Source: Candidatus Aminicenantota bacterium (lineage in GTDB: Bacteria; Acidobacteriota; Aminicenantia; Aminicenantales; Aminicenantaceae). Taken from it: a DNA stretch of 54,004 nucleotides. Below are positions 25,462 through 29,586 of the stretch, in pieces. The notes beneath the pieces were generated by a model, which did no database searches, was not told the DNA's origin, and worked only from the letters and a program-made list of their open reading frames with translations. Positions within the stretch are counted from its first letter, which is position 1. Each line of letters opens with the position of its first letter. The stretch is taken from assembly GCA_021162615.1 (NCBI GenBank), contig JAGGYH010000015.1, positions 1-54,004 on the forward strand. Reading direction: 5' to 3'. A program made the translations under genes and the position numbers.

Positions 25462-25701
25462 TCACATCTCTTTCTGTATCCACTTTTTGATTTCTTCCGG
25501 AGAGGGTATGCGGCCGGATGCTTTGATTTTTCCGTTGATGACCAACCCGGGAGTAGCGAAAATCTTGTACTCGGAAATTTTTTTGATGTCAGTGACTTTC
25601 TGAACGTCGGCGCCGACATTAAGTTCGGCAAGGGCGTTGATCGTTCTTTTTTCCACTTCTCTGCACCTCGGACAACCCGGTCCTAAAATCCTTATTTCCA
25701 T
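25462..25701 (-). CDS. small thioredoxin-fold redox protein (redox-active disulfide protein type)
   Basis: 79 aa. The track starts at a GTG (25710) that overlaps the ribosome binding site; GGAGG sits eight bases before ATG 25701, which is preferred. It begins MEIRILGPGCPRCREVEK with a CxxC (CPRC) redox centre, then the cis-Pro region ATPGLVINGK. This mini-thioredoxin family (thioredoxin_3 / TIGR00412) is often beside ArsP/DUF318 permeases. It follows the permease by 76 bases on the same strand, so it may reduce the metalloid substrate or a regulator disulfide. Confidence 0.88.
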   Translation of the reverse strand: MEIRILGPGCPRCREVEKRTINALAELNVGADVQKVTDIKKISEYKIFATPGLVINGKIKASGRIPSPEEIKKWIQKEM

Positions 25702-25777
25702 ATTTTTCACCTCCGAAATAAAAGTTAATATAGTTTCTTTAGTTTATTTGGTTTATGAGGAATTAAATTTAATATTT

Positions 25778-26947
25778 TCATGAAAAAAAATGTCCATAAA
25801 TCATTCCCGTTATAGTCGCCATAATGACCACAAGCGTAATATAGGCAAGCGTCTTTTTTGTCCCGATAATACTTCTTATGACAAGCATGTTGGGAAGTGA
25901 TAAAGCAGGACCGGCGAGAAGAAGAGCCAGGGCCGGCCCCTGCCCCATACCCGCCCCTAAAAGTCCTTGAAGAATGGGCACTTCTGTTAAAGTAGCAAAG
26001 TACATCAAGGCTCCTGCCACAGAGGCAAAAAGATTCGCCCCCAGGCTGTTTCCGCCCACAAGCTGAGCCACCCAATTACTGGGGATTATGCCTTCATGAC
26101 CCGGCCTTCCCAGTAAAAAGCCGGAGGCTAAGACGCCGGCAAACAAAAGGGGAAAGATCTGTTTGGCAAAAACCCAGGTGGAAAAGGTCCATTCTTTTAG
26201 TTCTTCTTTCCTGAACCATCTGATAATCATCCAGGCAAGAACAGCCAGAAGCACTGCACCGATATACCATTTTGCTTGATAGATAAGGTGCCAGACTTTG
26301 AGCTCCGGGCTTGATTTTCCCCAGTTTATGAACACCAGAATTCCCACCATCACCGCAAAATAAAGAATTGTTTTCCAAAAAGGCCGGGTTTCTTTTTCTT
26401 CTTCTTCCATAAATTCTGATTGTTCTCTGTTCTTTTCTTCCTCTTTGCTGAATAAAAGATGCATAAGGAGTCCGATCACAACCGCAAACACAACCGCACC
26501 TATCGCCCGGGCTAATCCTAGTTTGTATCCCAGGACTTTGGCAGTAAGGATTATGGCTAATACATTGATAGCCGGTCCTGAATACAGAAAAGCAGTTGCC
26601 GGGCCTATGCCCGCTCCTCTGGAGTAAATTCCTGCAAAAAGGGGAAGAACCGTGCAGGAGCAGACGGCCAGAATGGTTCCGGAGACAGAAGCTATAGAGT
26701 AAGAAACGATTTTTTTGGCTTTAGCTCCAAAGTATTTGATAACAGAGGCTTTGCTGACAAAAACTGAAATGGCGCCTGCTATAAAAAATGCTGGGATCAG
26801 ACACAGCAGAACATGTTCCCGGGCATATTCCTGAAGCAGCAAGAAAGCCTCGCTGATTGCATTCTGAACAGTGGGCTGCTGAAAGGGGATGAAGTAAGAG
26901 GCCAGAAAAGCGATGAGAAAAATGAGGAAAATCCATCTGTCTTTCAT
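25778..26947 (-). CDS. ArsP/DUF318-family permease
   Basis: 389 aa with about ten hydrophobic segments in two similar halves separated by a Glu/Lys-rich cytoplasmic loop (about residues 165-190). The signature AVCSCTVLPLFAGIYSRGAG lies in the first half, and a related stretch (MYFATLTEVPILQGLLGAG) in the second. In characterised ArsP, conserved Cys residues bind trivalent organoarsenicals for export. Promoter and ArsR-type operator lie in the divergent gap toward the arsR-like gene. The substrate could be an organoarsenical, another soft metal(loid), or unknown. Confidence 0.88.
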   Translation of the reverse strand: MKDRWIFLIFLIAFLASYFIPFQQPTVQNAISEAFLLLQEYAREHVLLCLIPAFFIAGAISVFVSKASVIKYFGAKAKKIVSYSIASVSGTILAVCSCTVLPLFAGIYSRGAGIGPATAFLYSGPAINVLAIILTAKVLGYKLGLARAIGAVVFAVVIGLLMHLLFSKEEEKNREQSEFMEEEEKETRPFWKTILYFAVMVGILVFINWGKSSPELKVWHLIYQAKWYIGAVLLAVLAWMIIRWFRKEELKEWTFSTWVFAKQIFPLLFAGVLASGFLLGRPGHEGIIPSNWVAQLVGGNSLGANLFASVAGALMYFATLTEVPILQGLLGAGMGQGPALALLLAGPALSLPNMLVIRSIIGTKKTLAYITLVVIMATITGMIYGHFFS

Positions 26948-26993: not shown

Positions 26994-27035
26994 ATATGAA
27001 CATATATTCATATCATCGAAAGTCATTCTTGTCAA
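26994..27035 (-). promoter_or_regulatory. permease promoter with overlapping ArsR-type operator
   Basis: Minus-strand TTGACA (27030-27035), 17-base spacer, TATGAA -10. The -10 lies within the dyad ATATGAA-CATATA-TTCATAT (26994-27013), seven-base perfect arms. A bound ArsR dimer would block polymerase here. Confidence 0.65.
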
Positions 27036-27074
27036 GTTTATTTGGTTCTTACAGAACAAGTCCTGTTAAAAGAA

Positions 27075-27103
27075 TTGACGAATGAGTGGAGAAATTTTAG
27101 AAT
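27075..27103 (+). promoter_or_regulatory. promoter of the arsR-like gene
   Basis: TTGACG (27075-27080), 17-base spacer, TAGAAT (27098-27103). It lies inside the upstream extension of the track ORF, which supports the later ATG at 27129. Confidence 0.5.
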
Positions 27104-27128
27104 AAATAAATACTGTAAAGTGGTTATT

Positions 27129-27476
27129 ATGAGGAACGACATAAAAATTTTCAAAGCCCTTTCAGATCCGACCAGACTCCGTATTCTCCATCTCCTTTTA
27201 AAAAGAAAATTATGCGTATGCGAGCTCGTCTTTATCCTGAAAATGGAACAGTCCCGCATCTCCCATCAGCTCCGGGTCCTGCGAGAAGCGGGTCTGGTGG
27301 AGGATAAACGGGATGGCAAATGGATCAATTATCAGATTCCCAAAAAAACAAAAGAAATTTTCAAAAAAATATTAGACCAAATATCAAAGGAAAATTTTTT
27401 TGATTCAGCGGAATTTGAGGAAGACAGAAAAAACCTGGAAATTTGTCTCAAAGAGAATTTTCGCATGAAAAAATAA
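27129..27476 (+). CDS. ArsR-family metal(loid)-responsive repressor
   Basis: Start moved from 27042 to ATG 27129 (115 aa) because a promoter lies between them and the ArsR fold begins with NDIKIFKALSDPTRLRILHLL. The winged helix contains RKLCVCELVFIL, a CxC metal-binding pair in the place used by arsenic/cadmium-type ArsR sensors, then the recognition helix MEQSRISHQLRVLREAGLV. It is divergent from the ArsP-like permease and its likely operator sits on the permease promoter, so metal binding should release permease transcription. Its C-terminal 30 residues are charged. Confidence 0.9.
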   Translation: MRNDIKIFKALSDPTRLRILHLLLKRKLCVCELVFILKMEQSRISHQLRVLREAGLVEDKRDGKWINYQIPKKTKEIFKKILDQISKENFFDSAEFEEDRKNLEICLKENFRMKK

Positions 27477-27499: not shown

Positions 27500-27820
27500 T
27501 TAAGAAGCTGATGCAGGGGTTGCTGTAATCTGCAGTCCAAGGATCCGGACGCCCTTTTGGGTTTGCATGGACAGAGTGGCCGGTTCAGTAATAAGGCAGT
27601 GCATCTCTTTAAAATCCTTTTTTTCTGAGTTCACCTCAATTGTCGCTTCTCCCTCCAAAACAATGAAAACAACATATTCTGACATCTTGCAGGGAGGCAT
27701 TTTCCCCCCGGGAGGCAGTTCAATTATTCGGGTTTTGAATTCTTCTGTTTGGAATAAAACATTCTTTTCCCTTTTTTCGTATGGAAAAGCTTTTATTTGA
27801 GAGAGATCGAATGCTTTCAT
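27500..27820 (-). CDS. small cupin-domain protein
   Basis: 106 aa. Beta-rich with the cupin-like run IELPPGGKMPPCKMSEYVVF and VLEGEATIEVNSEKKDF, then a second strand set LITEPATLSMQTQKGVRIL. The usual metal-binding His residues of motif 1 are not obvious (Cys, Ser and Tyr take their place), so it may bind a soft metal through Cys or be non-catalytic. It is the last gene of the PadR operon, 13 bases after the second half-permease, with AAGGAG overlapping the preceding stop. Confidence 0.75.
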   Translation of the reverse strand: MKAFDLSQIKAFPYEKREKNVLFQTEEFKTRIIELPPGGKMPPCKMSEYVVFIVLEGEATIEVNSEKKDFKEMHCLITEPATLSMQTQKGVRILGLQITATPASAS

Positions 27821-27833
27821 TTTTCATTTCTCC

Positions 27834-28400
27834 TTATCGGGTGTGAACCTGTTTTTGTTTTTTTTGAAACGCTAATTGCTCTATAAGCAGCCCCATGAGA
27901 ATAACAAAGAAAATAGTTAAAAGAAGCCTCGTGCCCATAAATTTGAATCCAAGGAACTGAAGCTCCACCAGCTCCTGAGGGATTTTAATGCAGGCCCAGG
28001 CAGAAATAAAAACAACCACATTAGAAATTCGGGCTCCTTTTTTAATAAGTGCGGAAGCCAGAGGAAAAGCAATGTAAAGAGGACCTGTGGGCAGAGCCCC
28101 GAAGAATATGGCTAAAAGCGGCCCTTTAACTCCGGAGGCTTTCCCCAAATACTTGACCACCTGCTCTTTGGAGATGAATACGCTGAAGAGCCCCATAATG
28201 ATCATTACAGCTGGAAGGACAGCCATCATTTCCCTCATATAACTCCAGGCGGTTGTGACGGCTGCTTCTTTTTTATCAGGAAATATTAAGAGAAGGACAC
28301 CGCCGGCAGCTAGAGCTGCCCCAAAAATCAGGTAGTCTCTAAAGATTTTTATTGAGGAAGAATTTTGTTTTCTGGTTTTTTCCATATTCTGAATATTCAT
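27834..28400 (-). CDS. half-size permease B (ArsP/DUF318-like)
   Basis: The track ORF reaches 28661 only because of an out-of-frame extension through the preceding gene. The real start is ATG 28400, which overlaps the previous stop as ATGA (188 aa). It has four or five hydrophobic segments, with FFGALPTGPLYIAFPLASAL and GLFSVFISKEQVVKYLGK. The ISKEQVVKYLGK part resembles the SVFVSKASVIKYFGAK part of the 25.8-kb ArsP-like permease. With the preceding gene it would make up one full transporter from two chains. Confidence 0.82.
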   Translation of the reverse strand: MNIQNMEKTRKQNSSSIKIFRDYLIFGAALAAGGVLLLIFPDKKEAAVTTAWSYMREMMAVLPAVMIIMGLFSVFISKEQVVKYLGKASGVKGPLLAIFFGALPTGPLYIAFPLASALIKKGARISNVVVFISAWACIKIPQELVELQFLGFKFMGTRLLLTIFFVILMGLLIEQLAFQKKQKQVHTR

Positions 28401-28879
28401 AGAATCATCCCCATGATGAGAGCGATGGTAACAGCTAGAATGAAGCTGAGGCTGTTTCGAAGAATCGTGAGTTTGATCCCGAGTTCTTTTATTTCCAGGG
28501 GCAGTGTGATTATGCCTACCATGGTCAAAGTGGTGATAAAGGCAGCCACTGGGGCGATGGTGGCTCCGCTCTGAAGAAGAGCGGCGGCTAAGGGATAAGA
28601 AACCAGGGCCGGGATATGGAGTACTGCGCCAAGAGCTGCAATAGCCAGAATGCCTGACCATCCAGCTTGCGCTCCGATGAACTTCATGATCTCAGAGGGA
28701 GGAATGAAAGAGGAGAAAAGTCCGACAATAACGATTATCATGAGAACAAGAGGAAGGATTCTCAGGAAAGACCGGGCAGCAACAATGATTGACCTGCGGG
28801 TTTTTTCTCTATCTTTGAAGAAGGCAAAAACCAAAAACACTACAGCGAGGGCATTGATCAAAATAACAGCTGATTTCAT
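28397..28879 (-). CDS. half-size permease A (ArsP/DUF318-like)
   Basis: 160 aa, about four hydrophobic segments. FSSFIPPSEIMKFIGAQAGW corresponds to the same loop as in half B and in the full-size permease, and GAVLHIPALVSYPLAAALLQ corresponds to its pore region. Starts and stops overlap by four bases both upstream (small Cys-rich protein) and downstream (half B), so equal production by coupled translation is likely. Family relation is by eye. Confidence 0.82.
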   Translation of the reverse strand: MKSAVILINALAVVFLVFAFFKDREKTRRSIIVAARSFLRILPLVLMIIVIVGLFSSFIPPSEIMKFIGAQAGWSGILAIAALGAVLHIPALVSYPLAAALLQSGATIAPVAAFITTLTMVGIITLPLEIKELGIKLTILRNSLSFILAVTIALIMGMIL

Positions 28880-29094
28880 TGTGTTTTTATTGTTTGCTTG
28901 CCGGACTTTATCCTGTCGAGATGCTCTTCAACGGCCGTGGCTTCCGCCTGAAGGTCTTTGAGGTATTCCTCGAGCCGGGCGATTCGCTCTTGACGGGTTG
29001 AAAAACGCCTCTGGAACAAGCCTTTTTGGGACCTGCCGGGTTGACAACAACAGCGGCCGGAACCTTGATGATGAAATTCGTGATTCATACACAT
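28876..29094 (-). CDS. small Cys/His-rich coiled-coil protein (DUF5320-like)
   Basis: 72 aa. The N-terminal 20 residues contain three consecutive Cys and three His (NHEFHHQGSGRCCCQPGR), and the last 40 form an amphipathic charged helix (RLEEYLKDLQAEATAVEEHL). This head-and-coil layout is seen in DUF5320-type small proteins that accompany metal-linked genes; metal binding is inferred. It lies 16 bases after padR and overlaps half-permease A by four bases. Confidence 0.7.
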   Translation of the reverse strand: MCMNHEFHHQGSGRCCCQPGRSQKGLFQRRFSTRQERIARLEEYLKDLQAEATAVEEHLDRIKSGKQTIKTQ

Positions 29095-29110
29095 TTTTAT
29101 CTTCTTCTAA

Positions 29111-29503
29111 TTAAGTTTCATGCGGTTTAAAACGGGAGGAGTAAGCTTTTAGAAAGCGTCCCAGCCGTTTCCGGGTATTCTGGATGTGCTCAGCCCAGGC
29201 ATGCAGGAATTCAACGCCGTCTGGGGTGATTTCATAAATCCGCCGGGCCGGGCCGGATCCCTCTGTATCCCAGGAAGACTTGACCAGCCCATCCTCTTCG
29301 AACTGCCGCAGCGTCCGGTAAAGAAATCCCGGGTCTATGCCTTTAGTGTCTTCATTTCGGTTGAGTTTGTCAGTCAACTGGTATCCATGAGCTGCTTCTT
29401 CTGACAGAAGCAGCAGAAGCCAGGGCTGAATAAAACCCCGTATTCGGCCAGAGGGAGGACTGCAGCAGTTATGGTTTGAATCATGAGAGTCATGATGACA
29501 CAT
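29111..29503 (-). CDS. PadR-family transcriptional regulator with Cys/His-rich N-terminal tail
   Basis: 130 aa. A winged helix of PadR type: IQPWLLLLLSEEAAHGYQL, GFLYRTLRQFEEDGLVKSSW and RRIYEITPDGVEFLHAW, with a C-terminal dimer helix. The first 19 residues are unusual, MCHHDSHDSNHNCC, with three Cys and four His, and could be a metal sensor; most PadR proteins lack this. GGAGG lies six bases before the ATG. It is the first gene of a five-gene operon and has a consensus promoter and dyad in front, so it probably represses its own operon. Confidence 0.88.
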   Translation of the reverse strand: MCHHDSHDSNHNCCSPPSGRIRGFIQPWLLLLLSEEAAHGYQLTDKLNRNEDTKGIDPGFLYRTLRQFEEDGLVKSSWDTEGSGPARRIYEITPDGVEFLHAWAEHIQNTRKRLGRFLKAYSSRFKPHET

Positions 29504-29541
29504 CTATTACCTCCAGTAAATTCGATAAATCTATTGTCATC

Positions 29542-29586
29542 TATATGAATAAAACATATAATAGACATAAACATTCATTATGTCAA
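29542..29586 (-). promoter_or_regulatory. promoter and candidate operator of the padR operon
   Basis: Minus strand TTGACA (29581-29586), 17-base spacer, TATTAT (29558-29563). The dyad TATATG-AATAAAA-CATATA (29542-29560) overlaps the -10 and start region, a fitting site for PadR. Confidence 0.6.

Follow-up and report, generated by a model that had tools for sequence, protein, structure and literature searches.

A conserved pair of half-size ArsP_1 permease genes with a Cys-x-Met cupin and a PadR-type regulator: a candidate antiparallel transporter for soft metal(loid)s in bacteria and archaea

Five genes on the minus strand at 29503-27500 of the window (the whole stretch of 54,004 nucleotides that was analysed) encode, in order, a PadR-type regulator, a 72-aa protein, two half-size permeases, A and B, and a cupin-like protein. 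They raise the question of whether two short membrane proteins make up one transporter and, if so, what it carries. The initial annotation had described this operon and all five open reading frames are where it placed them; the two half-size permease genes do overlap by ATGA as it claimed (28879-28397 and 28400-27834). The features of the operon and its surroundings are as follows.

29558..29586, minus strand: promoter of the operon, TTGACA-17-TATTAT; similar -35/-10 boxes lie upstream of orthologous padR genes
29542..29560, no strand assigned: candidate PadR operator TATATG-N7-CATATA, overlapping the -10 box
29111..29503, minus strand: padR, PadR-family regulator of 130 aa (PF03551, 60.6 bits, cut-off 27)
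28876..29094, minus strand: 72-aa Cys/His-rich accessory protein with a helical C-terminus (homologues at L098, L099 and L118)
28397..28879, minus strand: half-permease A, 160 aa (PF03773, 34.2 bits), predicted N-out/C-out
27834..28400, minus strand: half-permease B, 188 aa (PF03773, 45.2 bits), predicted N-in/C-in
27500..27820, minus strand: cupin-like protein, 106 aa, Cys44-x-Met46 replacing the metal-binding His-x-His
27042..27476, plus strand: ArsR/SmtB regulator, convergent neighbour (NF033788, 96 bits against 55), probable start ATG near 27129
25778..26947, minus strand: full-size ArsP_1 permease with the LAVCSCTVLPLF motif (PF03773, 267 bits), divergent from arsR
25462..25710, minus strand: ArsE/MTH895-type thioredoxin, downstream of the full-size permease (TIGR00412, 96 bits against 62)

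The proposal of a two-chain transporter turned on whether the halves belong to one family and whether their order is kept elsewhere. Both halves exceed the gathering score of the Pfam ArsP_1 family (32.3 bits), each of them matches the first repeat of the 294-position model, and A and B are homologous to one another (hhalign E 5e-22). Tandem A/B genes were found in some 22 genomes in a search of 198 relatives, and a scan of bacteria and archaea with one genome per species gave 80 further loci, 78 after removal of duplicates. At 76 of these 78 loci outside the phylum set A is followed by B, adjacent and on the same strand, and at the remaining two the contig stops at or just after A. As it recurs in this way, with only the two contig-end cases cut short, the two-gene arrangement is far beyond chance. 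Outside the phylum set the pair was carried by 43 bacterial and 34 archaeal records; Thermoplasmatota, Methanobacteriota, Actinomycetota, Chloroflexota and Spirochaetota account for most of them, and the environments are mostly anaerobic. The exact four-nucleotide overlap of A and B was present in 74 of the 90 pairs measured. Because near relatives are over-represented in the sequence set and short contigs are common, the partner frequencies given below are lower bounds.

Each half has its own pattern of conservation. In A, 25 columns are invariant among 60 sequences, including ITTLTM-x-G, P127, E129, G134, R141 and N142; in B there are 18, including GP 106-107, FP 112-113, KGA 121-123, E146 and R158. 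Cys137 and Lys139 of B reach at least 90% in the same column count, and over 91 sequences they are found in 74 and 84, respectively; Cys137 is the only common cysteine in the halves. The pair is an old and widespread gene set that is essentially unnamed. In Thermococcus peptonophilus and Peptoclostridium acidaminophilum RefSeq gives A and B no name beyond 'permease', and among the open-licence literature no paper was found on paired half-size ArsP_1 proteins, on the Cys cupin or on the linkage to PadR.

The positive-inside rule allows topology to be read from the bias of Lys and Arg, which were counted here in loops defined on a joint alignment. The bias of A was negative in 25 of 25 sequences (mean -8.7, range -11 to -4) and that of B positive in 25 of 25 (mean +12.2, range +7 to +18). 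For fused ArsP the N-half gave +9.2 and the C-half a mean of -5.0, with at least one exception. Under the rule, the opposite biases predict A to be N-out/C-out and B to be N-in/C-in. As the two are homologous yet opposite in positive-charge bias, it is probable that they form an antiparallel heterodimer. The idea of a split DUF318/ArsP protein, put forward in the initial annotation, thus holds as regards the family and needs amending as regards orientation, the halves being predicted to lie in opposite senses.

AlphaFold2 monomer models had a mean pLDDT of 79 for A and 89 for B. Both comprise two long helices, a short surface helix, half-membrane helices and a last long helix; the half-membrane helices are short and set around conserved Gly/Pro breaks. 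Our reading of these models is that each half may consist of four membrane helices and a re-entrant hairpin. In the model of B, Cys137 and Lys139 sit at the break of a discontinuous helix. A Foldseek search of the A and B monomers against the PDB gave no match, and neither by sequence nor by fold did a relative with a solved structure emerge. In fused ArsP the flip between the halves would presumably be supplied by an extra linker helix, for which the full-size permease of the window offers a candidate, e.g. FWKTILYFAVMVGILVFINW.

The relation of the paired genes to other members of the family was examined by tree and profile. In the tree A is monophyletic (98/94), B is monophyletic (99/88), a group of solitary half-size proteins forms one clade, and the half-size and fused proteins are parted by a branch with 100/98 support; the tree was built on only 130 columns and long branches meet. 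In profile comparisons A is nearer the C-half of fused ArsP and B nearer the N-half. On descent of A and B from a split fused ArsP, profile scores and tree disagree, and AU tests rejected neither the grouping of A with fused C-halves (p 0.086) nor that of B with fused N-halves (p 0.084), i.e. p about 0.085. Should paired and fused proteins go back to a single duplication, the A-B order would be the reverse of that in the fused chain.

The solitary half-size ArsP_1 genes encode proteins of 173-207 aa (L027-L033, L057-L062, L087-L089, L091, L094 and L095), which fit the A profile about as well as the B profile and have no partner gene. Their Lys and Arg bias without the tails is about -1 and their N-terminal tails are strongly positive; they are candidates for homodimers or dual topology. 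A related A/B pair at L090 (6612-7960) has its A-half fused to an N-terminal NifX-like Nitro_FeMo-Co domain (PF02579, 59 bits), and similar pairs at L092 and L093 are without this fusion. Apparent natural A-B fusions at L074-L086, L166 and L171 were rejected: the long open frames are only upstream extensions of the frame.

The cupin is the most regular partner of the pair: of the 17 other genomes of the phylum set in which it occurs, 16 have it next to the pair, either following B or preceding A. As the initial annotation had noticed, it has Cys where a His is expected, reading PPCKM. Its match to Cupin_2 (PF07883) is weak, covers the barrel core and lies below the cut-off (18.5 bits, E 0.0017, cut-off 27.2). 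Among close orthologues Cys44 is present in 30 of 30, Met46 in 29 of 30 and Cys75 in 29 of 30. Cys44 is kept in all 41 members of the family, the distant ones retaining Cys44-x-Met46 but not Cys75; in three outgroup cupins His takes the place of Cys44. Cys-x-Met is a typical ligand set for Cu(I) and soft metals, and whether this family binds a metal or metalloid ligand is directly testable.

The regulator upstream of A is either of PadR type or a winged-helix protein of ArsR type. In the window it is clearly a PadR protein, and its N-terminal tail, MCHHDSHDSNHNCC, contains the three Cys and four His that had been reported. Most close PadR orthologues have a Cys-bearing N-terminal tail; over the wider set, at least two Cys in the tail with few elsewhere were found in 21 of 24 ArsR-type and 8 of 15 PadR regulators. 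That two unrelated types of regulator carry Cys tails argues for a thiophilic signal. At L164, L167, L170, L173 and L155 the PadR regulator is without the two-Cys tail and the Cys-x-Met cupin is also absent, and the substrate may differ in that branch.

The promoter, TTGACA-17-TATTAT, scores 11 of 12 matches, although the region has no more promoter-like matches than chance would give (6 against an expected 5.5). It is overlapped by the TATATG-N7-CATATA dyad as first described, and boxes and dyad recur upstream of four orthologous padR genes (L097, L098, L099 and L107). The arms are kept in L098, L099 and L107, one is altered in L097, and the 7-nt spacer varies in sequence; in five padR upstream regions, from this lineage and Dehalococcoidia, the dyad is followed by ATGA. 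It is a candidate PadR operator, and its overlap with the -10 box fits repression. A perfect 7-7-7 dyad, GACATAA/TTATGTC, inside the window promoter was discarded, as it is not conserved in the orthologues.

The 72-aa protein is less regular. It has HH at residues 8-9 and CCC at residues 15-17, near its start as claimed, and all three homologues keep MC..HH..CCC. As these come from only three other loci, it does not belong to the core of the system, contrary to the initial annotation. The suggested likeness to DUF5320 was not borne out either, no DUF5320 match being found at E up to 1; no Pfam family scored over its cut-off for this protein or for its homologue at L098.

The convergent arsR gene belongs with the full-size arsP and thioredoxin genes to a unit separate from the five-gene operon. 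A near-perfect palindrome, ATATGAACATATATTCATAT, lies at 26994-27013 between the divergent arsR (27042, plus strand) and full-size arsP (26947, minus strand), and is likely to be the ArsR/SmtB operator of this divergon. The full-size permease holds CSC, and the closest NCBIfam model to it, below cut-off, is a Cu/Zn efflux protein.

A more general link to arsenic genes was seen among the relatives. An acr3 sequence of any length is present in 17 of the 22 pair-bearing relatives, and 13 of these 17 have a copy no more than about 7 kb from the pair, in some cases as a fragment where a contig ends. The chance of such linkage is about 0.007 per genome (about 1.4 copies per 3 Mb); the linked relatives are not independent, but the linkage is seen in at least six families. 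Full acr3 matches near the pair occur in Methanosarcinales, Bipolaricaulota, Actinomycetota, a Bacillota MAG and WOR-3, and full-size arsP, ArsE-type thioredoxin and occasionally arsC also recur nearby. Against this, no ars gene was seen near most loci outside the phylum, many of the contigs being short. On a plasmid of T. peptonophilus (L177, 1802-5974) the pair directly follows genes for an ArsR/SmtB protein, a heavy-metal P-type ATPase and a helix-turn-helix protein; this cultured archaeon would be a useful experimental host. In Peptoclostridium the pair is near genes for a selenium-dependent molybdenum cofactor and not metal resistance genes. The neighbourhood indicates islands of arsenic or soft-metal genes in place of the unspecified organometal of the original proposal.

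These observations suggest the following mechanism. A and B would pair antiparallel into one transport path, to which each half would contribute a re-entrant or broken-helix hairpin and in which Cys137 and Lys139 of B would lie near the middle. Export of a soft metal(loid) is the most likely function of the pair, the first candidate being trivalent arsenic or an organoarsenical. The cytosolic cupin probably binds the same species at its Cys-x-Met site and passes it on to A and B. PadR would sit on the TATATG-N7-CATATA dyad, across the promoter, and probably let go of the DNA once its Cys/His tail has captured the metal(loid). The Cys-x-Met site, the Cys tails on two types of regulator and the linkage to acr3 favour a soft metal(loid) as substrate, which is somewhat the better supposition; arsenic specifically is a tentative choice that falls a little short of even chances. 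As to direction, the balance tips modestly towards export. Taken as a whole, the reading of the operon as a thiol-sensing, two-subunit, antiparallel secondary transporter for soft metal(loid) export, with an arsenical as first candidate, has about an even chance of being correct.

Could the two genes be something other than two subunits of one transporter? The contig is MAG-derived and full-size ArsP is usually one chain, so a frameshift, gene decay or faulty assembly might be suspected. There is next to no chance of this, and the conservation of the pair rules it out: dozens of independent genomes show the same split, each half is under strong constraint, A and B both align with the first repeat of the Pfam model, and their likeness to the fused protein is in reversed order. 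Separate homodimers of A and of B, or a parallel dimer, would be in line with the solitary half-size genes, which must work without a partner, so that self-assembly is possible. This is nonetheless very unlikely, given that A is never found without B among the 78 loci except at a contig end, that the overlap of the genes is of the translational-coupling kind, that the charge biases of A and B are opposite and fixed, and that each half has private invariant residues. We infer that A and B are, in all likelihood, one two-subunit unit.

The function attributed to that unit has to be weighed against two other readings. The CxC motif of known ArsP proteins is in neither half (PMC4435449), about half of the PadR-type regulators are without the two-Cys tail, several such loci also being without the cupin, and the Peptoclostridium pair has its molybdenum cofactor neighbours; all of these count against export of a soft metal(loid). 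An antiparallel transporter for another soft metal, be it copper, cadmium, mercury or a mixture, with the ars linkage reflecting resistance-gene islands, is rather unlikely. It would suit the Cys-x-Met site, the P-type ATPase and ArsR/SmtB gene beside the T. peptonophilus pair, and the Cu/Zn model closest to the neighbouring full-size permease, but several phyla repeatedly show acr3, full-size arsP, the ArsE-type thioredoxin and at times arsC in the vicinity of the pair. Less probable again is a role in anaerobes as a channel or uptake system for some solute related to sulfur or to cofactors, with cupin and regulator cysteines that would sense thiol or redox state and not a toxic metal. Transport direction is not readable from sequence, a Crp/Fnr regulator and selenium and molybdenum cofactor genes flank the pair in Peptoclostridium, the A-half of L090 carries the NifX-like domain and the records are mostly from anaerobic environments; against this stand the recurrent acr3/arsP/arsR linkage and the Cys tails on regulators of two unrelated families. 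Export of a soft metal(loid) is preferred to both. A bolder version, an undescribed efflux system spanning both domains and built from an obligate antiparallel heterodimer, a Cys-x-Met cupin metallochaperone and independently gained regulator thiol tails, is doubtful as it stands. If true, the solitary, paired and fused proteins would be the singleton, paired and fused stages in the evolution of an inverted-repeat transporter within one family. Should the preferred reading be right, the 'permease, permease' pairs of many anaerobic bacteria and archaea would gain a function, the handling of soft metals or arsenic, and a structure, the antiparallel heterodimer.

Among known systems the closest is ArsP itself (DUF318/UPF0718, PF03773, TC 2.A.119). 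Both halves are over the Pfam cut-off, A and B taken together give its two-repeat design, and arsR, acr3 and arsP are often nearby. ArsP is, however, a single chain of about 344 aa with two repeat units, whereas A and B are two chains of 160 and 188 aa from separate genes and are set apart from the fused proteins in the tree. A C(S/T)C motif in the transmembrane region was present in all surveyed ArsP proteins (PMC4435449), and C.C was found in none of the 91 sequences of A or the 91 of B. The halves are thus not ordinary ArsP proteins, and the chemistry of the transport site must differ from that of ArsP. The initial proposal of a transporter of two chains, accompanied by a Cys cupin and a sensor that carries thiols, is well supported, though the pair is not simply a split ArsP.

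The accessory proteins likewise depart from their nearest models. The regulator has a clear PadR domain, but it scores 81.9 bits against the PhaQ repressor, the nearest NCBIfam model (TIGR02719, cut-off 139.35), and differs from it in its Cys/His N-terminal tail. The pair-linked cupins have Cys-x-Met for the His-x-His of Cupin_2 throughout.

Half-size '4 TMS' members of the ArsP family have been mentioned by the TCDB group as a topology variant only (PMC7176098). A and B resemble them in being single repeat units within the family; in that account no statement was found of a gene pair, opposite orientation, a cupin or regulators. The E. coli YdgE/YdgF proteins, of the SMR family, and the DUF606 pairs offer the closest parallel in design, opposite charge bias having been taken there as the mark of antiparallel heterodimers (PMC3962082). 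There, as here, overlapping or adjacent genes encode small membrane proteins that are homologous to one another and opposite in bias. A and B are nevertheless unrelated to them in sequence, with no SMR or DUF606 Pfam match at E up to 1, and each subunit seems to hold a re-entrant hairpin. In the wider family, as here, singleton, paired and fused forms occur side by side (PMC3962082). If the antiparallel reading is correct, the description of ArsP as a 4+4 direct repeat would need revision to an inverted repeat, and ArsP_1 would be the second clear case, beside DUF606, in which singleton, paired and fused antiparallel forms occur together.
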